In this document: in pieces, positions 1-12,937 of the stretch
Position numbering within the stretch: position 1 is the first letter of the stretch
Layout of the letters: every line of letters starts with the position of its first letter
Source of the DNA: a virus
IMG/VR virus record: IMGVR_UViG_3300023116_003049
Location: 1 to 25,618 of that record
DNA: 25,618 nt
Strand: one strand, 5' to 3'
Made by a program: the position numbers and the translations under genes
The notes under the pieces: model-generated
What the model was told of the DNA's origin: nothing
What the model saw: the letters and a program-made list of their open reading frames with translations, nothing else
The model's database searches: none

Positions 1-232
1 GTAGTGGAATATGTTCCCAGTATCCTCCCTTGAGAATTAATGTGGCATATCCCCATGGATGATCATGTAGTGTAGGTTCGTCACCTACTAAAACTTTATG
101 CAGTGTAATATTAAATGGAAAGTTCTTTCTATCCTTTAAAAATAGATAATAACGGATAAGGTATGGAACTTTTCCGTCTCGATCGTAAATAATTCTCTTA
201 CGATCTAATTTTTCAAGCAGTTTCAACAGCAT
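1..232 (-). CDS. Cupin-like protein, C-terminus cut by window edge
   Basis: This reading frame starts with ATG at 232 and runs off the left edge of the window, so only about 77 N-terminal residues are visible. It begins MLLKLLEKLDRKRIIYDRDG and later contains HDHPWGYATLILKGGYWE, where the His-x-His pair followed by a Gly-rich strand is typical of a small cupin beta-barrel metal site. An AGAGG Shine-Dalgarno sequence sits 5 bases before the ATG. The start overlaps the end of the DNA glycosylase gene by 20 bases, which suggests translational coupling and the same operon. Cupins cover many activities (dioxygenases, isomerases, sugar epimerases, sensors), so the substrate cannot be named. Family confidence is moderate because the second cupin motif lies outside the window. 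Confidence 0.65.
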   Translation of the reverse strand, partial: MLLKLLEKLDRKRIIYDRDGKVPYLIRYYLFLKDRKNFPFNITLHKVLVGDEPTLHDHPWGYATLILKGGYWEHIPL

Positions 233-1208: not shown

Positions 1209-1895
1209 TTATCTTGGTGCAAACTCTTGTTGCAATTTAATATTGTCCATGAACTCTTTCTTGGTTCCTGCATCTTCTTTGAATGATCCTTCAAGAACGG
1301 TTGTCTGTGTTAAACTAGAGTGTGCCATGATGCCACGGTTTTCACAACATCCGTGTGTTGCCTGAATGTATACACCAATGTTCTTTGAGTTCGTTGCTTT
1401 CTTGATTTCACGTGCAATGTCATTTGCAAGTTCTTCTTGTAGTGTTCCACGTCTAGCACACCATTGTGCAATACGTGTATACTTAGAAAGTCCAATGACC
1501 TTGCCATTAGGAATAATACCAATGTATGCTACTCCTGTTACTGGCTGATGATGATGCGAACAAACTGATTTAAGTTCCGAACGAACTACAAGCATGCCCT
1601 TGTATGCATCTTCACCCTCATTAGGAAATGCAGTTGCGTGTGGAATAGTGTCATAACGCCCTTGCATTAATTCGTTATAATACATTTTAGCAAGGCGTTT
1701 TGCAGTGCCTTGGCTGTTAGGATCACTGTCGCGGTCAATTAAGAGTGCGTCTAAAACGCCCTCAAACTTTTCTGCGGCTTCTTCGATTAGTGTTTCTTTT
1801 TCGCCAGCATATATAAATTCACTAATATTGTCGCCGGCCCAGTAACGCTTGTTTGCGTCCTTTAATCTGCGTGTTACTTCTTCGTATTTTTTCAA
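1209..1895 (-). CDS. folE: GTP cyclohydrolase I
   Basis: FolE converts GTP to 7,8-dihydroneopterin triphosphate, the first step for both folate and 7-deazaguanine (queuosine, archaeosine, preQ0) synthesis. The 228-aa length is normal for the family. The zinc ligands are visible as Cys112 and His115 in VCSHHHQP and as Cys183 in HGCCENRGI. The N-terminal DPNSQGTAKRLAKMYYNEL (about 58-76) and GKVIGLSKYTRIAQW (131-145) are family signatures. The start is a TTG codon at 1895 with GGAGAAG 7 bases upstream; no ATG fits better. The gene lies downstream of a glycosyltransferase, queD-like and dpdA-like genes, so its product most likely feeds a 7-deazaguanine DNA-modification pathway rather than folate. 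Residue pattern and context agree. Confidence 0.93.
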   Translation of the reverse strand: MKKYEEVTRRLKDANKRYWAGDNISEFIYAGEKETLIEEAAEKFEGVLDALLIDRDSDPNSQGTAKRLAKMYYNELMQGRYDTIPHATAFPNEGEDAYKGMLVVRSELKSVCSHHHQPVTGVAYIGIIPNGKVIGLSKYTRIAQWCARRGTLQEELANDIAREIKKATNSKNIGVYIQATHGCCENRGIMAHSSLTQTTVLEGSFKEDAGTKKEFMDNIKLQQEFAPR

Positions 1896-3194: not shown

Positions 3195-3635
3195 TTATCT
3201 AGCATACTCAATGTGGGCACCGTTCTCTCCATCTTCACTTACGTCAATATGGACTTCACGGCCTGGATATTTTTCGTTGATCTTTGTGTAAAGATCATCA
3301 CTCATCATTTCACAACTCTTATAATCTAGTTCAAGGGTCTTCTCCTCATACAGTTTTTCTAACCATCTTTTGAATTGAATAAATTCGATATCTCTGTCGT
3401 TGTGTGTCACAGTGATGCCGACTTTGAAATGAAATATGTGTCTGTGGGGATAACCCAAAAACGAAACATCATATTCATCACCTGTTGCAAGATTGGGATC
3501 ATCCAATGCCGCAGGATACTTGTGGATACCTTCCTTGCGGAACGTAACCCAAATCATTCTCTTTGCTGTTCTCATTGTCTTTTCAAATCTTTCAGTTTCT
3601 GCATATGCCTTTTGCATTTGTTCAGTTATACTCAT
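3195..3635 (-). CDS. queD: 6-carboxytetrahydropterin synthase-like protein (QueD/PTPS family)
   Basis: QueD turns dihydroneopterin triphosphate, the FolE product, into 6-carboxytetrahydropterin on the way to preQ0. This 146-aa protein has the size of the T-fold family. GYPHRHIFHFKVGITV (61-76) matches the family strand with the zinc His-x-His pair (His64, His66), and His38 in KEGIHKYP could be the third ligand. RDIEFIQFKRWLEKLY (81-96) fits the MDFxxLK helix. LELDYKSCEMMSDDLYTKI (101-119) fits the LDH...TxExLAxxI region, and a C-terminal Glu lies in EDGENGAHIEY. The usual catalytic Cys is not obvious at its normal place, so the activity may differ. Its location between folE and dpdA strongly supports the pathway. 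Confidence 0.7.
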   Translation of the reverse strand: MSITEQMQKAYAETERFEKTMRTAKRMIWVTFRKEGIHKYPAALDDPNLATGDEYDVSFLGYPHRHIFHFKVGITVTHNDRDIEFIQFKRWLEKLYEEKTLELDYKSCEMMSDDLYTKINEKYPGREVHIDVSEDGENGAHIEYAR

Positions 3636-3653: not shown

Positions 3654-4184
3654 TTAGTTGTCATCCACAATCTTATCGTTTTTGTATTCATTCCATTCCG
3701 TAAATTTGGAGCGGTCCATCAAGTCATGTAGGCTGTGGCACCATACACCTGGATTGGTTGCTTCAAAACCTTTGTCATCAATTTTGAGCATTGTGTTATA
3801 ATTCCAAAGTTTTATGTGAGGTATTGGAACCCTAATCTGTGGAATGAATCTATCATACTCAACCAATGGTCCTTCTAAAAACTCTTCGGCTGCATTAATT
3901 GGAATATCCAAACTGCAAAACAAATCATCTTTGAGAAATGGTTCAATCATTTTTTCCCATTCCTCATAATAGTCCGCACTGTGATTCTGTGAAGCAGGAT
4001 CGAAACTGTGATTGGCACCAAAGAAGATGTGTTTAACATCCTGTGCATAATCTCTAATGATGCTTGGATCATTTAAACCTGTAACGAATAGAGTTCGCAT
4101 TCCGTGTGCAGGAGTTTTTTCAACTTCTACACCTGTAAAAAATCTTACGTTTTCAGCACTACCAGTTTCGTAATCTCGTTTCAT
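3654..4184 (-). CDS. Unnamed protein linked to the deazaguanine cluster
   Basis: This 176-aa protein has no recognised catalytic motif. It starts MKRDYETGSAENVRFFTGVE, which is followed by MRTLFVTGLNDPSIIRDYAQ and KHIFFGANHSFDP, alternating strands and helices like half of an alpha/beta barrel. A second half has FIPQIRVPIPHIKLWNYNT and NPGVWCHSLHDLMD. It lacks the CxxxCxxC of the radical-SAM enzyme QueE and the SGGLDS of QueC, so it is neither in standard form. ATG at 4184 is coupled by ATGA overlap to the YdcH-like gene, with AAGGAAC upstream. It lies between queD-like and dpdA-like genes, so a role in base modification is a reasonable guess by location only. I recall similar unnamed proteins in marine T4-like phages. 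Confidence 0.6.
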   Translation of the reverse strand: MKRDYETGSAENVRFFTGVEVEKTPAHGMRTLFVTGLNDPSIIRDYAQDVKHIFFGANHSFDPASQNHSADYYEEWEKMIEPFLKDDLFCSLDIPINAAEEFLEGPLVEYDRFIPQIRVPIPHIKLWNYNTMLKIDDKGFEATNPGVWCHSLHDLMDRSKFTEWNEYKNDKIVDDN

Positions 4185-4360
4185 TGAACATGTTCCTTTT
4201 CAATTTTTTCGATTTCGTCCTTTAGTTTGAGGCGTTCCTTTTTCATATCATGGATTTGATCATCATCAAATTTTCCTGTCTTTTCCATGGTATCAATTTT
4301 CTTATTTAGGTATTGGTGTGTCTCTTTCAAAAATTTTAATCTTTGTGTATAGTCACCCAT
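4181..4360 (-). CDS. Small coiled-coil protein, YdcH/DUF465-like
   Basis: The likely start is ATG at 4360, giving about 59 aa. A perfect AAGGAGG lies 5 bases upstream, and this start falls just after the dpdA stop at 4362. The longer frame back to 4444 would overlap dpdA and has no such signal. The protein starts MGDYTQRLKFLKETHQYLNK, and DMKKERLKLKDEIEKIEKEH forms the second helix. This is the helix-turn-helix hairpin pattern seen in the small YdcH (DUF465) family, with the hallmark LKKxKLxLKDEI. The biochemical role of that family is unclear. Here it probably acts as a small coiled-coil partner. The stop overlaps the next ATG by four bases. Confidence 0.62.
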   Translation of the reverse strand: MGDYTQRLKFLKETHQYLNKKIDTMEKTGKFDDDQIHDMKKERLKLKDEIEKIEKEHVQ

Positions 4361-4361
4361 A

Positions 4362-5909
4362 TTATCCTCCTTGTAGTTCTTTCTCCAATTTATCCAATTC
4401 TCCATCTTCTCGATCATCGGCCCAAGGTGTTTTCTCTTCACCATCTTCGTCTACCTCCACGAACATTCTATTAAATTCGTTAGTAACACCACCACGCAAT
4501 CTTGCACCTTCAAGATCCTTTAAGAATGCGTCAGCATCCTTGATCATTGCAAATGCATCTTCTTTAGTCTTACACTCAAATAATTCTTCTACAAATTTGT
4601 CAAAGTATAAGATATTACGCGGAACCCATTCAGAGTATTCATCACTCTTATCTGCTTCCTTGACCTTTCTCCAACGTCTCCAGTCTGGACGATCCTTAGC
4701 AAGTTCAATATCCGTTAAGTTGTTTGCACGTTGAACCGCAACAATGTGTTGATAAACATTGTGTGACATCATTAGTGCATAACCAAAACTATCCCACGAT
4801 GTTTTGCCTTCCTTACCAATTTTGTTTAGCATTCCTGGTGCATAGTGGCATATGTCCGCAATGCTAAGGCGTCTTCCAATTTCGCTTTCAAATGGAAAAG
4901 GAATATCATGACGTTTGGCAAGCATCTTATTATCAGGTGCCTTGTCCATAATAACTGACCAACGTTTATTTGTGTGTTGGGAGTTAGTATACACTAATCC
5001 GTGTGCTGTAGCAATAAACGGACTTGCACAGTCAAAACTAATTGTAAAGTTTTCATTAATGTGTTTACGAACTTGTCTTTGTATTGAAGTAAGATAACAT
5101 GACCAATCAAGTTGTGCTGTGCCCAAGAAGTGCATCCAGTCCTTGCCTTCCAGCATACCGTCAAACTTCATTGTCATTAACCTGCGTAGTGTAATAGGCA
5201 TCTTGCACATGTTAGCACCACCCATTGCCCAACCTTCGCAGGCCTTGTCCTTCCATATCTTAGGATCGGAGAATTCTTTAACACCTTCATACCACTTCTC
5301 AGCAGTATCCCAGTCTGAACCCTGTAATACGTTTAGGAATTTAGTAGCACCCAATCTGCGTTCTAACCAATACTTATTGTTAAATCTAGTCTTGTCTAAA
5401 CAGTCCTCAAAACTCTTTAGTCCTGTCTTGGGTGAGTGAATGTGATCACAAGCCCAAGTCGGAACGTCAAGTAGCATTGACCAGTCTGCTGTTAGTTCAA
5501 GCCAATTAAGAATATCATCTCTAACCTTGTTAGCAGCCGCACCTTCAAAGTTTAGCCAATCAAACTTAAGAACACCCTTACCAACCTGATAACCACCTGA
5601 GTCACCAAGTATCATGGTCTTGCCTCTATCTCGAGTCTGCACCATTGCATCCTGATCCATTGTTTTATCAAGATTTAATTGTGCGTGTCCTGCGGAATAC
5701 AATCCATATTTGTATGTAAAGTATCCTTCCTCTTCATTTAAAAAGTTCATACCTTCGATGCCGCGATCAAAACCCTGCGGAATACGTTCTTTAGGAACGA
5801 ACTCTTCCTTACGTTGTTTAGCAATATAAGTGCTGAAGAAAGAACTAATAGCAGGCAAATACACTGCGTAGTCTTTCTGTAATGGTGTTAGATTGACTGG
5901 TTTTTTCAT
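4362..5909 (-). CDS. dpdA: DNA 7-deazaguanine transglycosylase, DpdA-like (TGT superfamily)
   Basis: DpdA enzymes exchange guanine in DNA for a 7-deazaguanine base, protecting phage DNA from restriction. This 515-aa protein has a TGT-type barrel. LGDSGGYQVGKG (101-112) matches the TGT SDSGGFQ with Asp103 as catalytic acid/base. FLNVLQGSDW (191-200) matches the VQGG strand, GWAMGGANM (226-234) the GxAIGG loop, and SFDCASPF (291-298) the FDCVxPTR nucleophile site with Asp293. SHNVYQHIVAVQRAN near the C-terminus matches the TGT IHNLYFY helix. The tRNA-type zinc motif CxCxxC is not seen; only one Cys lies near it (ADICHY). Loss of the tRNA zinc site, the phage context and folE/queD neighbours favour DNA over tRNA as substrate. 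The gene starts 8 bases after the clamp stop with only a weak Shine-Dalgarno. Confidence 0.82.
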   Translation of the reverse strand: MKKPVNLTPLQKDYAVYLPAISSFFSTYIAKQRKEEFVPKERIPQGFDRGIEGMNFLNEEEGYFTYKYGLYSAGHAQLNLDKTMDQDAMVQTRDRGKTMILGDSGGYQVGKGVLKFDWLNFEGAAANKVRDDILNWLELTADWSMLLDVPTWACDHIHSPKTGLKSFEDCLDKTRFNNKYWLERRLGATKFLNVLQGSDWDTAEKWYEGVKEFSDPKIWKDKACEGWAMGGANMCKMPITLRRLMTMKFDGMLEGKDWMHFLGTAQLDWSCYLTSIQRQVRKHINENFTISFDCASPFIATAHGLVYTNSQHTNKRWSVIMDKAPDNKMLAKRHDIPFPFESEIGRRLSIADICHYAPGMLNKIGKEGKTSWDSFGYALMMSHNVYQHIVAVQRANNLTDIELAKDRPDWRRWRKVKEADKSDEYSEWVPRNILYFDKFVEELFECKTKEDAFAMIKDADAFLKDLEGARLRGGVTNEFNRMFVEVDEDGEEKTPWADDREDGELDKLEKELQGG

Positions 5910-5917
5910 AACTTTAT

Positions 5918-6655
5918 TTAGGCCGCCTGTGCTGGAATGATATATTTGTAATTCGCCAAACCAGAGTCTAGTGTAATCTGGATAGCCCCTTCGTTTGAAA
6001 TACTCATCTTAGTATTATTAACATCAGCAATTTTTAGAATTGCAAGGATGCTCGCAACTGGCCAAGTCCAGCCTCTATCCAATTTACCTTCCACATCAGT
6101 AGCAAACACAAACTCACCACCGTGTGTTGATGCATCACCAAAGATAAACTTCAAGTTACCATCTTCAGTTTTAGCAAGGAATGTTGGATGTTCTGGGTTA
6201 GCACCAGCCTGGAAATTAAAACGTTGCACTCCTGCAAGTGTTGGAACTACTTCCACGTCCCAGTTAACACCACGGAACTTAACGGTCTTCATCTTTTCAT
6301 TGATAATTTCCATGTTCATAAAACGATAATCGTTCTTGAAATCACCATCAGCATTTTCAAAATGTATTCCCACAGGAATAGTTTCGCCATTTCTTTCTGC
6401 TGTCGTAATGCTAATCTTTGCTTCTTTTTGATATTCTGAACCATCAATTAGATATTTTAGTTTCTGTAATTGTGGCATACCAAACACACCAATCATGTCT
6501 GGATAAGGATTGTGTGTTTCTGCTTCCATGATAACTGATCTATCATCAGCCATGGAAAACATTGCAGTCTTATCCTCTTCGCCGGTAACCTTCACAGTAG
6601 TTAGGAATCCTAAGTTCTGTGTGTGACCAACGATATCTTGTAAAATGTCTTTCAT
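5918..6655 (-). CDS. 45: DNA polymerase sliding clamp (T4 gp45-like)
   Basis: The clamp encircles DNA and tethers the polymerase; in T4 it also activates late transcription. This 245-aa protein is near the 228 aa of T4 gp45. It shows two repeated clamp-like halves rich in beta strands, with a C-terminal half of the form WTWPVASILAILKIADVNNT followed by a Gly-rich strand SGLANYKYIIPAQ. Family evidence is by overall pattern and by position directly after the gp43-type polymerase, as in T4, where 45 lies in the same replication cluster. ATG at 6655 has AGGAGAATT upstream. A sigma70-type promoter sits at 6677-6705. The clamp-loader genes 44 and 62, usually nearby in T4, are not in this window. 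Confidence 0.85.
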   Translation of the reverse strand: MKDILQDIVGHTQNLGFLTTVKVTGEEDKTAMFSMADDRSVIMEAETHNPYPDMIGVFGMPQLQKLKYLIDGSEYQKEAKISITTAERNGETIPVGIHFENADGDFKNDYRFMNMEIINEKMKTVKFRGVNWDVEVVPTLAGVQRFNFQAGANPEHPTFLAKTEDGNLKFIFGDASTHGGEFVFATDVEGKLDRGWTWPVASILAILKIADVNNTKMSISNEGAIQITLDSGLANYKYIIPAQAA

Positions 6656-6676
6656 TGAATTCTCCTATACACTTAC

Positions 6677-6705
6677 ATTATATTTAGGTTTTGTATAAAA
6701 CACAA
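6677..6705 (-). promoter_or_regulatory. Sigma70-type promoter upstream of the clamp gene
   Basis: Reading the minus strand, TTGTGT (6705-6700) and TATAAT (6682-6677) are separated by exactly 17 bases. The -35 box lies 9 bases after the polymerase stop, and transcription would begin about 15 bases before the clamp ATG. This would drive the clamp and probably the whole dpdA-to-cupin run. A CCTAAATA late-type motif overlaps the spacer and -10, so the site might be used in more than one phase. Confidence 0.65.
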
Positions 6706-6713
6706 GCATTTTT

Positions 6714-9380
6714 TTACTCAAAATCAAATAATTTGTTAAAGTTATTATCATTACGAGTTTGACTGATGTCCCATTCCAAAACTCCAATTAAGTTTCCAAG
6801 TTTTTCATCGATAACTGTATTTTCCATAGTTGCATCATCGAATGGTAATTCCTTGAACCATTCCGGTAATCTTAGTTCGTCTACCGGATATGCAACTGAT
6901 GTGTATCCCATCGGATTGTCTTTTACCTTACAAACAATAACTTTAGCACCGTCTGTAATATTCATTGAATACTTGTCTCCATGCATACGCTTGAGTGTAT
7001 TCCAGTTAATACTTGCTCTTACGTGGCCTGGCATATTTGCCTTGCCTTGTTTCTTTTCTTTTGCTTCGTATTCAGTAATCTTGTTAGCACGTTTAGGCGA
7101 ACCCTTTTCCCAACCTGGTCGTGCCTTAAATTCTGTTCTAAATTCTGTTATGTAATCAAGAACACGTTCACGTTCCTGACCTTCCAGCACCATTTCCAAC
7201 ACTTCCTTTAGGAAGTCCTGAATAACAACAGGAGTATCAGAACGCTTGAGATCAAGACCCATTGCCTTAATCTTTCCGCTCTTGCCTTCAGTGTCCGTTC
7301 TAAAACCTTCAATATCATAATAAAGAACTGCATAACGTTTCTTTGTAATGAACAAACCCTTGCTCGCAACAATTTCACGTGCCGCAGCAATTACTTCTGA
7401 ACGCTTCTTAGGACAATGGAACGCATCTCCCATGAACTTAGGAAACGTTGCATTTGTTGTTTCACCGATGGTGTCATAAAGTTCAATCACACTGTCCTTT
7501 GTCCACGGAATGCTGCCCGCTTCAACATCCTTCTTGAGTGTGCTGTATGCACTAAAGTATGTGGAATCAGTATCACCATACACAATTGCCTTGCCTGTAT
7601 GATCATATTCACCAGTGATAATTTCATTAATCTTACCTGCCATGTGCTTGGTAATGCTACGACCGGTTAGTGTAACTGACTGACCAATTCTATTGTCAAA
7701 GAAACGGCATCCTGGATTTAGGATGGCGCCATATAAACTGTTAAGCAAAATTTTCTTAACCAACTGTCTCTTCGCCCAGTATTCTTCTTCGATCTTGTTG
7801 CCTGCATTCTGGCTTTCCTTTTGCTTGGCCTGCATTTCCTTACGTTCTTTATACCAACGACTCAGCAGTCCAGGAATGACTCCTTCCTTTTCGTATGTAA
7901 AGATTGTGCCATTAGCACTAAGCATCCAAGGTTGATTACTTTCGAATATTAGATCATAAATTTGTGCGGCACTTAGAGTGTCACTTCCACCATCGCCTTC
8001 CCAGTCGATTGTAATTTGTCTGGATACTTCTCGTTCCATAACACTTGAATATTCAACAGACCCAAACATACCTTCCCAAGCAGACGCAAATGATTTACCC
8101 TTTGCCATTTGTCCTTCGATGTGTGCCTTGGTTCCATCCTGTCTTAGTTGACCAACAACAGTTTCTGGACCCATGTTCAATGCACGAATCACCGATGGAT
8201 ACAGTGAGTTCAAGTCAACTGATCCAATCCACTCATGAATACCTTTCTTGGGATATGCAACATAAGCACCCGCCGCAGGTTCACTACCTGGCTCACGTTT
8301 TACTCTGTTCGGAACAATCATGCCACGCCTGTGTGCTTCATTAATAATACCTTGCTCCGTAACAGCAACAGCACCCATTGTTGTTTGAATAAGGACTGTG
8401 TTTTCGTGTGCAATTGTGTTAGCAAGATCAATGAACTTTAGTTTCTTATCCAGTTTATCTAGTAGTGCAGTGTCTTGTCTGTTATATTCGATAAACGTTC
8501 TAAAGTCGTTGTTGTAAAGAGCATCAAGGCTCCCTTCGTAGACTGTTTTAGTTTCACCTACTTCCAGTTCACCAATAGCGTCAAGTCTATATGTGTGTCG
8601 TTCTTCATAGTTGTATTTTCTATACAGTTCCAAACTATCCACATGCACACGACCAATTAGGTCATATGTCTGTGAAGTCTTACCAAACTTTTCATACTCA
8701 CGTTTCTTAGGATACTGATTCCACAAACAAAAACGTCTTGTATCTTCTTTAGATAGAACTTTTGTTACACGGTTAACAGTATACGGAATATCGAAGCCTT
8801 CACTGTTCCAACCACTTAGCACATCTGCATCCTGTATCAAATCAAGAAATGCATCCAGCATATCTGCTTCATTATCATAAAGGATTGTATTAGGAATGCC
8901 TTCGATTGCTTTCTTGGCCTCATCTATTGAAAGGGTCTTTGGAGGAATGGCTAAACAGATTAGTTCTTCCATCCATTGTAGATGAACCGCTATTGAAGTA
9001 ATGGGCATGAATGCATCTTCTGGTGATGCATAACCGCGTTCAGGGTCGAAGTCGACCTCAATATCGAAAAACGCAACATTGAGTTTAGGTGCGTCAATAT
9101 TTAGATAGTTGTCTTCTAAACAACGATAGATAGGATTAATATCGCTTTCGTATAATTTTTTATTGGAATGTATCGCAAGTTCCTTGCGAAGTTCTTTAAT
9201 ATTCTTGGCTGTTACACGCTGTAGTGCTTCACCATGGATTGAAGTATGCTTGCCCTTGGCATCCTTATAATAGAATATGTGTCTTGGTTGATATTCTTTG
9301 AATTCTCTCTTGCCGTTTTTTCTTTCGACAATGCGGATTATATCTTCACCGCGATCATAGAACGCATCTACGTAACTCAT
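6714..9380 (-). CDS. 43: Family B DNA polymerase, T4 gp43-like
   Basis: This is the replicative polymerase with 3'-5' proofreading. Its 888 aa compare with 898 in T4. Exonuclease motif I is FFDIEVDF with Asp106 and Glu108. Exo II is SGWNSEGFDIPY (189-200), and exo III is YNRQDTALL with Asp303. Polymerase motif A is DLNSLYPSVIRA (389-400), motif B is KKILLNSLYGAI (542-553), and motif C is YGDTDS (601-606) with the catalytic Asp pair. The last residues, NKLFDFE, resemble the clamp-binding tail of T4/RB69 polymerase, which ends in MFDF. ATG at 9380 has AAGGAG upstream. A sigma70-type promoter lies at 9456-9484. All active-site residues are present, so the enzyme looks intact; no intein or split is seen. 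Confidence 0.98.
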   Translation of the reverse strand: MSYVDAFYDRGEDIIRIVERKNGKREFKEYQPRHIFYYKDAKGKHTSIHGEALQRVTAKNIKELRKELAIHSNKKLYESDINPIYRCLEDNYLNIDAPKLNVAFFDIEVDFDPERGYASPEDAFMPITSIAVHLQWMEELICLAIPPKTLSIDEAKKAIEGIPNTILYDNEADMLDAFLDLIQDADVLSGWNSEGFDIPYTVNRVTKVLSKEDTRRFCLWNQYPKKREYEKFGKTSQTYDLIGRVHVDSLELYRKYNYEERHTYRLDAIGELEVGETKTVYEGSLDALYNNDFRTFIEYNRQDTALLDKLDKKLKFIDLANTIAHENTVLIQTTMGAVAVTEQGIINEAHRRGMIVPNRVKREPGSEPAAGAYVAYPKKGIHEWIGSVDLNSLYPSVIRALNMGPETVVGQLRQDGTKAHIEGQMAKGKSFASAWEGMFGSVEYSSVMEREVSRQITIDWEGDGGSDTLSAAQIYDLIFESNQPWMLSANGTIFTYEKEGVIPGLLSRWYKERKEMQAKQKESQNAGNKIEEEYWAKRQLVKKILLNSLYGAILNPGCRFFDNRIGQSVTLTGRSITKHMAGKINEIITGEYDHTGKAIVYGDTDSTYFSAYSTLKKDVEAGSIPWTKDSVIELYDTIGETTNATFPKFMGDAFHCPKKRSEVIAAAREIVASKGLFITKKRYAVLYYDIEGFRTDTEGKSGKIKAMGLDLKRSDTPVVIQDFLKEVLEMVLEGQERERVLDYITEFRTEFKARPGWEKGSPKRANKITEYEAKEKKQGKANMPGHVRASINWNTLKRMHGDKYSMNITDGAKVIVCKVKDNPMGYTSVAYPVDELRLPEWFKELPFDDATMENTVIDEKLGNLIGVLEWDISQTRNDNNFNKLFDFE

Positions 9381-10232: not shown

Positions 10233-10261
10233 ATAATAACACAAAGTTAGATGTTTGTCAA
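10233..10261 (-). promoter_or_regulatory. Near-consensus sigma70 promoter
   Basis: On the minus strand a perfect TTGACA (10261-10256) and TATTAT (10238-10233) are separated by 17 bases. The -35 box overlaps the stop codon of the carbamoyltransferase. Predicted transcription begins at about 10226, immediately before the ATG of the 76-aa basic protein, so no ribosome-binding site would be included. It is the strongest -35 box of the promoters seen here and probably a host-polymerase early promoter. Confidence 0.72.
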
Positions 10262-11751
10262 GAGTTTTTTGAAAGAATTTGGTTACCGATAATCACGGCA
10301 TCCAAAAGTGAATTATTGTATAATTCCATTGCATCACTAGGGTTTCCAGCAATTGGTTTGCCTGCCACATTTAAACTGGTGTTCAATAGTATGGGTAGGT
10401 CCGTAAGATTTTTGAATTCTTTTAGTAACAGAGCAAAATGACCATCACCGCTAACCGTTTGCACTCGGCAGGTCCCGTCAATGTGTGTAATTGCATCTAG
10501 GTTCTTGGTTTTTGTTTTTCCTACATAAAGCATATGGGGATTGTCTGGCAAATCCTCAAAATAATCATCTTTAAATTCTTCTAATATGCTGGCTCCAAAC
10601 GGTCTATAGGTTTCTCTGTTTTTTATCTTGTTAATTATTTCTTTTCCGTTTTGAACGGCAGGGTGAAACAGTATAGATCTATTACCCAATGCTCTGGGTC
10701 CAATCTCTCCATTACCTTGATACCAACCTACAGTCTTGCCTCTTGATAAAAGATCAGCAGCCTTTTTAATAGTATCAATGGTTGGTTCTTCTGCAGATTG
10801 ATCCAATTGGCAGTATGGAAAGTTTTTTAATTTAAATTTAGGAAGATTATATTTTCTTCTAAGATATTCTAAGCCACCAATGCTCAATCCTTCGTCGGCA
10901 CAATGTGGAGGAATGATTAAATTTGGAAAGGACTGTTTTAATTTTGTATTCCATATAACATTTTGTGCAACACCGCCCGAATAAAAAATTGTTTCATCGT
11001 GTTTACAATATTTTTCAAAGAATGCAATTAATAAATCGCCAACATAGTCATGAACTGTGTTTATCCAATTCAATCCAGTTAAATTTCCTACGAGCATGTT
11101 TCCTTTGTAATCATTCCATTGTGCAAAATCAAAAATTTTCATGATATCATACATTGAATGCTGTGCAAGATGCTTTTTAAATTCTTGATCAGCAACACCG
11201 TAGGATTGTAATCCCATTAGTTTTCCTGCTATGTCAATGGTATGTTCTGCTTTAATACCAAACATGTCTCCTACGTTTGCCATTTCAGTTCCGATTGATC
11301 CGTGGGATTCGTGAGACCCCTCTTCAACTAATTTGTTATTTTGGAAAACTGTCCATGCCTTATCATAATCACCAAACCCATCAATCACTATGGACGTGGT
11401 AGGTTCAGCATCGGTCATTGGCCAATAACTTAATGCGTGTGCATAGTGATGATTTATTCTTGTGACTTTTGTATCTGCCTTAAATTTATTATAGTTTTCT
11501 ATACAAGGAAAGAAATCTTCTCTTTCTTTTTCATAACCATGGTGCCATGGATCAAACACTACTGCTATTTCATCAAGATCCTTGCTCGTTATACCCCATA
11601 CGGAATGTATTTCGGATTCCCATTCAACCAACTTGATGTCGTGGTGTTTTATTTGATGTTTTCTTTCAGACTTATAATACTCTACGCCATTCCCATTATA
11701 GAATGAGAAATTGGCATCGTGTTCGGATATTCGTAGAGAAAGTAATTTCAT
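10258..11751 (-). CDS. Carbamoyltransferase of the NodU/CmcH (TobZ-like) family
   Basis: These enzymes use carbamoyl phosphate and ATP to put a carbamoyl group on a hydroxyl, usually of a sugar. The 497-aa protein has both parts. A Kae1-like N-terminal domain carries the metal-binding NHHYAHALSYW (100-110), the acidic IVIDGFGDYD (121-130) and SGGVAQNVIWNTKL (258-271). The C-terminal YrdC-like part has GWYQGNGEIGPRALGNRSIL (342-361), the family signature, and RETYRPFGASIL. It starts MKLLSLRISEHDANF, the usual beginning with a His for metal. The Shine-Dalgarno is weak; it may be coupled to the 93-aa membrane gene that ends 6 bases upstream. The substrate is unknown: a surface sugar or a sugar-modified base are both possible. 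Family confidence is high. Confidence 0.9.
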   Translation of the reverse strand: MKLLSLRISEHDANFSFYNGNGVEYYKSERKHQIKHHDIKLVEWESEIHSVWGITSKDLDEIAVVFDPWHHGYEKEREDFFPCIENYNKFKADTKVTRINHHYAHALSYWPMTDAEPTTSIVIDGFGDYDKAWTVFQNNKLVEEGSHESHGSIGTEMANVGDMFGIKAEHTIDIAGKLMGLQSYGVADQEFKKHLAQHSMYDIMKIFDFAQWNDYKGNMLVGNLTGLNWINTVHDYVGDLLIAFFEKYCKHDETIFYSGGVAQNVIWNTKLKQSFPNLIIPPHCADEGLSIGGLEYLRRKYNLPKFKLKNFPYCQLDQSAEEPTIDTIKKAADLLSRGKTVGWYQGNGEIGPRALGNRSILFHPAVQNGKEIINKIKNRETYRPFGASILEEFKDDYFEDLPDNPHMLYVGKTKTKNLDAITHIDGTCRVQTVSGDGHFALLLKEFKNLTDLPILLNTSLNVAGKPIAGNPSDAMELYNNSLLDAVIIGNQILSKNS

Positions 11752-12385: not shown

Positions 12386-12937
12386 TTAGTATATCTTCCA
12401 ATTCATTAACTTTGCCATGCCCAATACTATTTCCTTTTCCGCTTCAAAATCATGATCTCCTTTGTTTCTATCTTCGTAAAACGTAGGAGTTGCCTTCCAA
12501 TCAAACCCAAATATGTTAACCTGCCTATGATTAAATTTTTGTAGTAGGTATAGTATCTGTATGCCCGTGGATGGTTCCTTTCCTATTCTTGTTGTAAGCA
12601 TGTAGGAATATTCTAAAGGATATGAATACATTCTAACATTAAAATTTGCCTTTCTTATCTTGATGGAATTTGTATGAGTCTTTGGAGTAAAGATTAATGA
12701 ATGGAATTTTGGTTGTTCTTTGTTATACTTAAGAAAAGTATTGACTTCACTAGATGCCAAAAAATCCCATCTATTACCCTGTCCCATAGGATTTATTATT
12801 TCGGTCCTATTGAATCTTATAGTTGGGTGTTTGTCTATCTGCTCTCCATAATGTGAATCGAGCAAACTTTGTGCATTGCCGACGACATTGATTGTGTTAG
12901 GTAAAACTTCCTGTAGATTGCTTAATAGCATGTTCAT
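12386..12937 (-). CDS. Sialyltransferase-like glycosyltransferase (GT29-type pattern)
   Basis: This 183-aa protein begins with a single nucleotide-sugar-binding domain. INVVGNAQSLLDSHYGEQID (16-35) followed by HPTIRFNRTE resembles the GT29 L-motif (VVGNxxxL...ID xxDxVxRxN). PSTGIQILYLLQKF (122-135) and VNIFGFDWK (140-148) resemble the S-motif, and His162 with Glu167 fits the VS-motif H-x4-E. Length is shorter than cellular enzymes, but phage versions can be minimal. Donor (CMP-sialic acid or another) is unknown. ATG at 12937 lies only 18 bases after a terminator, and no Shine-Dalgarno precedes it. The only promoter-like element is CTTAAATA ending 5 bases before the ATG. Capsid or lipopolysaccharide sugar transfer is a likely role. 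Confidence 0.65.
   Translation of the reverse strand: MNMLLSNLQEVLPNTINVVGNAQSLLDSHYGEQIDKHPTIRFNRTEIINPMGQGNRWDFLASSEVNTFLKYNKEQPKFHSLIFTPKTHTNSIKIRKANFNVRMYSYPLEYSYMLTTRIGKEPSTGIQILYLLQKFNHRQVNIFGFDWKATPTFYEDRNKGDHDFEAEKEIVLGMAKLMNWKIY

Follow-up and report, generated by a model that had tools for sequence, protein, structure and literature searches.

The window analysed here is the whole 25,618-nucleotide stretch of viral DNA (IMG/VR record IMGVR_UViG_3300023116_003049). Its minus strand carries a row of genes transcribed in the order DNA polymerase, clamp-like protein, DpdA-like protein, DUF465-like protein, the 176-residue protein under study (hereafter referred to as q176), f2, a small protein, a glycosyltransferase and FolE:

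2–232, minus strand: partial open reading frame of family f11, at the window edge
1,209–1,895, minus strand: FolE, GTP cyclohydrolase I, 228 residues
1,936–2,976, minus strand: GT4-like glycosyltransferase, 346 residues
2,976–3,182, minus strand: small protein of family f12, 68 residues, whose relatives likewise lie between the f2 and glycosyltransferase genes
3,195–3,635, minus strand: f2, previously labelled queD-like, matching PHROG 17812 (1e-34); candidate enzyme for processing 7-carboxy-7-deazaguanine (CDG)
3,654–4,184, minus strand: q176, 176 residues, ATG start; small, barrel-like α/β protein, predicted tailoring enzyme
4,181–4,360 (4,444 with a longer start), minus strand: DUF465-like small protein, 59 residues (Pfam, 2.8e-12), between dpdA and q176
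4,362–5,909, minus strand: DpdA-like DNA-guanine transglycosylase, 515 residues, with invariant GDSGG (D103) and FDCASP (D293) motifs
5,918–6,655, minus strand: clamp-like gene, conserved directly upstream of dpdA
6,714–9,380, minus strand: DNA polymerase, 888 residues, matching the protein annotated as such in phage ACP17; lies upstream of the module

The gene at 5,918–6,655 is called sliding-clamp-like by analogy, from the annotation of the genes in the same place in phages PAC2 and Phosso. At the opposite end, a phosphoribosyltransferase (f7) and QueE (f9) come after the f11 frame in relatives such as locus L014, which makes it probable that the module extends past the window. Elsewhere in the window lie a Nol-like carbamoyltransferase (10,258–11,751; PHROG 1601, 6.9e-145) and a match to the sialyltransferase family GT29 (12,386–12,937; over the Pfam cut-off, 1e-6).

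The start of q176 is overlapped by 4 nt (ATGA) by the DUF465-like gene, which itself starts 1 nt after the dpdA stop codon, with a GGAGG site inside the end of dpdA, and f2 starts 18 nt past the q176 stop codon. A preliminary description of this DNA had set q176 between a dpdA-like and a queD-like gene with coupled junctions; the position and the junctions stand, but the DUF465-like gene, unmentioned there, separates dpdA from q176. The similarity family of this small gene (f18) is present in 43 of 172 neighbourhoods.

The q176 reading frame is a genuine gene under purifying selection. Compared with close homologues, it gave dN/dS values of 0.046–0.143 in seven of eight pairs, the eighth being saturated; these values are rough, as dS exceeded 1 in five of the seven usable pairs. 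In IMG/VR, the window protein has 567 relatives (80 kept), the PAC2 protein 127 (80 kept) and the ACP17 protein nine, and the low dN/dS together with the 567 relatives argues against a chance open reading frame. The family is acidic, with a median pI of 4.9 across 172 homologues, and q176 has two cysteines only (C90 and C149). Among 89 dereplicated sequences, 24 positions are at least 95% conserved; the residues invariant in all 89 include E20, E22, K134, D137, N144, W148, W164, Y167 and D170, and D136 is kept in 98%. Several of the conserved residues lie, in our reading, at the C-terminal ends of predicted strands, which would fit a ligand-binding or catalytic pocket. Searches against Pfam, PHROGs, NCBIfam and the PDB sequences returned chance-level matches only, and thus no named family and no solved structure. 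QueC is characterized by SGGxDS and C(x)8CxxCxxC motifs, as given in the relevant passage of PMC13329287, and both are absent from q176. The CxxxCxxC motif of QueE is likewise absent, bearing out the earlier remark that the protein has neither a QueE nor a QueC motif.

A tblastn search found q176 in 13 of 50,697 phage records, comprising 11 records of PA5oct-like Pseudomonas phages and ACP17 twice; among the phages concerned are Acidovorax phage ACP17, PA5oct, PAC2 and Paride (P. aeruginosa PAO1). Three kinds of phage carry the module with q176: the PA5oct-like jumbo phages, ACP17 and T4-like phages that have not been cultured. A search of 84,980 species genomes of bacteria and archaea found q176 in four stretches, two of them (L200 and L202) within the same module, one (L199) in a module fragment and one (L201) with q176 only. 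Because these stretches are so few, and mostly hold the module or a fragment of it, q176 looks like a phage gene. In L201, q176 is fused (1,886–2,887) behind a sequence that resembles, by eye, glutamyl-tRNA reductase; this 3-kb contig of a metagenome-assembled genome is probably a chimera, and we set it aside.

Phage 7-deazaguanine DNA modification, as outlined by Hutinet et al. (2019, PMC6884629), relies on DpdA together with FolE, QueD, QueE and QueC, and the modified bases shield phage DNA from restriction. The module described here shares with that outline FolE, QueE, a TGT-like DpdA and, elsewhere in some genomes, a canonical QueD. It differs in that searches of the complete genomes of ACP17 and PAC2 for QueC (PF06508) gave no match, and in the additional f2, q176 and GT4-like glycosyltransferase. 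A survey of jumbo phages (PMC7824862) ascribes a deazaguanine synthesis and incorporation system to PA5oct, which is itself among the 13 phage records with q176; the survey's passages on PA5oct give the existence of the system only, and q176, f2 and the glycosyltransferase go unmentioned there. Among the matches listed from the open-licence PMC literature, none deals with q176 or describes phage DNA that bears a glycosylated deazaguanine.

To place q176, we examined 170 loci seeded with it. The 96 that were flanked by 3.5 kb or more on each side were used, and the other 74 were left out for their short flanks. All 96 contain f2, the glycosyltransferase and DpdA (of the window type in 95 and DpdA2 in one), and FolE is present in 86, whilst QueE and a phosphoribosyltransferase are present in 70 each. 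The order DpdA–q176–f2 on one strand is kept in all 95 loci that have a window-type DpdA and f2. Two glycosyltransferase seeds yielded further sets, one of 72 loci and one of the best 80 of at least 599. Among the 79 glycosyltransferase-seeded loci of at least 16 kb, DpdA was found in 78, f2 in 77 and q176 in 68; one of the 11 loci without q176 has it elsewhere in the contig. A total of 100 glycosyltransferase-seeded loci have q176 and adequate flanks, and each contains both DpdA and f2, with the order kept in 97. These counts are not independent: most of the loci belong to T4-like phages that are related to one another, and the two seed sets share at least four contigs. No q176 homologue lacking DpdA or f2 appeared in the 96 and 100 loci with adequate flanks. 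Membership of q176 in a deazaguanine DNA-modification module is therefore strongly supported by gene co-occurrence in three kinds of phage, and an assignment first made by location alone no longer depends on it. The phosphoribosyltransferase family f7 is present in 89 of 172 loci (for example, L158, 10,384–10,956), mostly between the glycosyltransferase and QueE in the loci read. A family of UDP-glucose dehydrogenase type, one member of which was tested, lies within or beside the module in 37 of 172 loci (for example, L081, 11,642–12,451).

The gene set varies in arrangement among the cultivated phages. In ACP17, the same genes are nearly contiguous, and the DpdA is a DpdA2, yet q176, f2 and the glycosyltransferase are kept. 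In PAC2, they are spread over the genome, with dpdA at 208 kb and q176 at 238 kb, a separation of 28 kb. As judged from these sequences, q176 accompanies f2 and the glycosyltransferase and is not tied to one DpdA subfamily, two having been seen; searches of nt-1 and 2.275.O, which carry a DpdA, did not detect it. Conversely, nine of 11 f2-bearing records (Phosso, RHph_I1_18, Xanthomonas phage X1, Ahp1, Bakedbeans, D479, BUCT-ZZ01, MA9V-3 and phiST) show no significant match to q176, the match in RHph_I1_18 being at chance level (E = 0.013) with an internal stop. A related glycosyltransferase is likewise found without q176 in four of six cases (Phosso, X1, BUCT-ZZ01 and PhiXhv-12). Phosso, X1 and BUCT-ZZ01 combine f2 with a related glycosyltransferase, so q176 is dispensable for the module. 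Two further candidates for q176 were rejected: a 143-residue protein upstream of the X1 glycosyltransferase looks q176-like by eye, but its profile comparison gave a probability of 0.5% and the phage collection contains no further relative of it, and a 177-residue 'glycosylase' of Phosso, encoded between the clamp and f2 genes, gave no match to the q176 profile.

The DpdA-like protein of the window is divergent. Its GDSGG and FDCASP motifs, with D103 and D293 invariant in 12 DpdA-like homologues, are what we take to be the catalytic aspartate motifs of tRNA-guanine transglycosylase. The protein has no Pfam match, including TGT, and no PDB sequence match worth naming, and the DpdA2 of nt-1 also lacks a Pfam TGT match. 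It is collinear with the ACP17 enzyme (hhalign probability 26%, E = 0.0007 for that comparison), which is a clear DpdA2, 37% identical to that of nt-1 (1e-50). In direct comparison, by contrast, no similarity is detectable between the window protein and the known DpdA2 of nt-1. On this chain of comparisons we accept 4,362–5,909 as a putative distant DpdA. DpdA of the window type occurs in the same 11 PA5oct-like records as q176 and in two other phages.

The label 'queD-like' for the gene at 3,195–3,635 does not hold: f2 has no PTPS/QueD match (PF01242), and hhalign of f2 with the ACP17 QueD gives 11.8% over 41 columns. Three histidines are invariant in f2 (H38, H64 and H66), presumably as in the zinc site of QueD. 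The catalytic cysteine of QueD, which we take to lie near the zinc-binding histidine pair, has no counterpart at that place in f2, where no cysteine shortly precedes H64 and the conserved cysteine is C108. From its sequence, then, f2 is not a canonical QueD; a canonical PTPS/QueD is encoded elsewhere in eight of 16 related records, ACP17 and PAC2 among the eight, and some of the 16 records are themselves fragments. A sub-threshold Pfam match of f2 to Tad6, a family of Thoeris inhibitors, is weak (E = 0.025), and a scan with the f2 protein of an Aeromonas phage returned no matches.

The QueE of the module is a radical SAM protein with three invariant cysteines, and the distribution of QueC is patchy. 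A QueC-like match at E ≤ 0.001 was found in five of 16 related records, four of them over the cut-off, and the matches in L173 and L176, examined in full, are QueC-like PP-loop proteins; part of the q176 group may therefore have a QueC-like enzyme. Among the 11 f2-bearing named phage records, QueC exceeds the cut-off in one (Vibrio phage D479, partial) and is weak in one (X1). In nt-1, 2.275.O and PhiXhv-12, f2 was not found by tblastn or in the fetched stretches, and all three have a strong QueC. The tendency of f2 to occur where QueC is absent fits an enzyme that processes CDG. Accessory genes of DpdA clusters that alter the 7-substituent, named DpdL, DpdM and DpdN, were reportedly described by Cui et al. 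in NAR in 2023, and DpdL is said to be a CDG decarboxylase. Of the two genes, we regard f2 as the likelier DpdL-like candidate; Cellulophaga phage phiST carries an f2 relative, and q176 was not found there. Nor is q176 simply a replacement for QueC, because Phosso, RHph_I1_18 and phiST show neither a QueC match nor a significant q176 match.

Pfam lends the glycosyltransferase weak support as a GT1/GT4-type enzyme. The window protein matches no Pfam glycosyltransferase profile over the curated cut-off, and the PF00534 matches of the ACP17 (0.00025) and PAC2 (0.00057) proteins also fall under it. The relative in BUCT-ZZ01 passes narrowly for PF00534 (26.5 bits, cut-off 26.4) and also for PF13692 (28.3 bits, cut-off 27). 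The related glycosyltransferase of PhiXhv-12 (L198) lies in a row of genes (4,816–8,902) consisting of a QueC-domain open reading frame, a deacetylase, the glycosyltransferase and a GFO/IDH/MocA oxidoreductase; the QueC-domain frame has 521 residues and is annotated as a glutamine aminotransferase, and the deacetylase is annotated as an N-acetylglucosaminyl-malate deacetylase.

AlphaFold predicts seven strands, mostly alternating with helices, for the window q176 (pLDDT 84, pTM 0.80), and ten strands, again mostly alternating with helices, for a 51%-identical homologue (pLDDT 86, pTM 0.82). Both models suggest a barrel-like α/β fold. The models display the alternating strand–helix layout recognized in the preliminary description, and the half barrel proposed there is roughly what they depict. 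Foldseek found no match at E ≤ 0.001 to either model in the PDB, and among viral models the ACP17 homologue was the only match at that level (E = 1.6e-5).

Taken together, these observations lead us to propose, tentatively and at somewhat below an even chance, that q176 is a small α/β enzyme, or a subunit of one, that is specific to phages and carries out one tailoring step of a 7-deazaguanine DNA-modification pathway poor in QueC. In such a pathway, CDG would be made by FolE, QueE and a canonical QueD, the last often encoded at another place, and f2 and q176 would turn the CDG base, or the sugar that decorates it, into the form needed for the following step. DpdA would then put the processed base into DNA, and the GT4-like glycosyltransferase would add the sugar. 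We infer that q176 is a catalyst whose substrate is either the base or the sugar linked to it, and that the product of the pathway is present in the DNA. The steady presence of the glycosyltransferase gene in the module suggests that this product may be a glycosylated deazaguanine.

Another reading, which we consider possible but unlikely, is that q176 descends from QueE, has lost the iron–sulphur cluster and binds CDG or its product, as either a pseudoenzyme that regulates QueE or a new enzyme. Its main attraction is structural. VIA-align superposes the window model on QueE 5th5 with Z = 5.9 over 125 residues, and the homologue model on 5th5 (Z = 6.1, 134 residues, 16% identity), 5tgs (Z = 5.9, 126 residues, 18%) and 6nhl (Z = 5.9, 127 residues, 10%). 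These alignments begin at the N-terminal hairpin (model residues 11–13) and cover nearly the whole of the q176 model, and in the list for the homologue model the non-QueE entries down to rank 30 cover fewer than 100 residues. However, Z values under 8 may, by the program's own warning, reflect a common arrangement only, and in both lists QueE is tied with STAS and Mre11/SbcD; STAS domains score as high as QueE over fewer residues, and in the list for the window model glycosidases, with scores nearly as high, and SbcD cover as many residues as QueE (5ccu 128, 8ghx 138, 6s85 123). Foldseek points both ways: three phage radical-SAM/NrdG proteins are among the weak viral matches (E = 0.5–0.83), but QueE is absent from the 50 PDB matches listed for either model. 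By eye, 'G.KTLFV' and 'HIFFGANHS' of q176 resemble 'GQKTMFV' and 'HVTISGGNPA' of B. subtilis QueE. With the widest alignments, the QueE profile ranks best of 27, although not significantly (E = 0.021, next 0.041) and in a register that differs from the likeness seen by eye. Across alignments, hhalign gave q176 and QueE probabilities of 1.2%, 0.19% and 2.25%. The q176 HMM scored at most 1.9 bits on QueE sequences (17 entries, of which 15 are valid and two are wrongly extracted frames of 45 and 28 residues), and block HMMs gave no signal; 10 of the 12 ranked valid QueE entries rank above the midpoint of the 3,865 HMM targets, yet at no more than those 1.9 bits. In sum, the q176 models suggest a weak overall fold likeness to QueE (Z about 6), whereas q176 lacks the iron–sulphur cysteines, has no significant profile similarity and is shorter (176 versus about 240 residues), and a separate QueE with all three cysteines coexists with it in the module.

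About as doubtful, or slightly more so, is the reading that q176 has as its substrate not the base but the sugar, or the sugar nucleotide, that the glycosyltransferase uses; it might, for instance, be a keto-sugar isomerase or epimerase. It draws on a pair of oxidoreductase genes, MocA-like and ADH-like, found in 23 loci, in which the ADH forms 12 clusters at 90% identity. The pair precedes q176 in 18 uncultured contigs and in PAC2, where q176 sits directly behind it; examples of the arrangement are L001 (10,215–12,492) and L087 (6,215–8,498), and in most of the pair loci read the end of the ADH gene overlaps the start of q176. In four uncultured pair loci tested, ADH_N exceeds the Pfam cut-off in four and GFO_IDH_MocA in three; in PAC2, the ADH partner alone has a Pfam match, and the other is tied by sequence (3e-29) to a MocA-type homologue. 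The UDP-glucose dehydrogenase-type family (37 of 172 neighbourhoods, one member tested) and glycosidase barrels among the weak Foldseek matches point the same way. Against a sugar role, the ADH of the pair occurs in just two of 17 records searched whole and not in ACP17, and q176 has no sequence match to a sugar enzyme. The rarity of the ADH marks the pair as accessory, and, together with four loci that have the pair without q176, it indicates that the pair does not define the role of q176.

Rather improbable, in our estimate, is a combined version in which glycosylated 7-deazaguanine is made from CDG without a classical QueC and q176, as a cluster-less offshoot of QueE, converts the base or hands it over for glycosylation. 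Of the two roles offered for q176 in the preliminary description, the missing pathway step fits better than a DpdA partner that chooses the DNA target or the density of sites; the latter, the least probable of the readings considered here, gains from the closeness of q176 to dpdA in T4-like loci, but q176 accompanies two DpdA subfamilies, is acidic, is absent from the searched sequences of nt-1 and 2.275.O and lies 28 kb from dpdA in PAC2, all of which favour tailoring, and the basic f12 protein (median pI 9.56) is a better candidate for nucleic-acid contact.

Collectively, our findings identify q176 as a real, conserved and unnamed component of a variant deazaguanine system, with a tailoring step as the chemical role that we infer for it. 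Phages in culture, namely ACP17 and PA5oct-like phages such as Paride, carry the module, so that its product is directly measurable. If the proposal is true, this widespread variant of the phage deazaguanine pathway, which has its own glycosyltransferase and two conserved proteins that lack a name, would represent a new DNA hypermodification chemistry.
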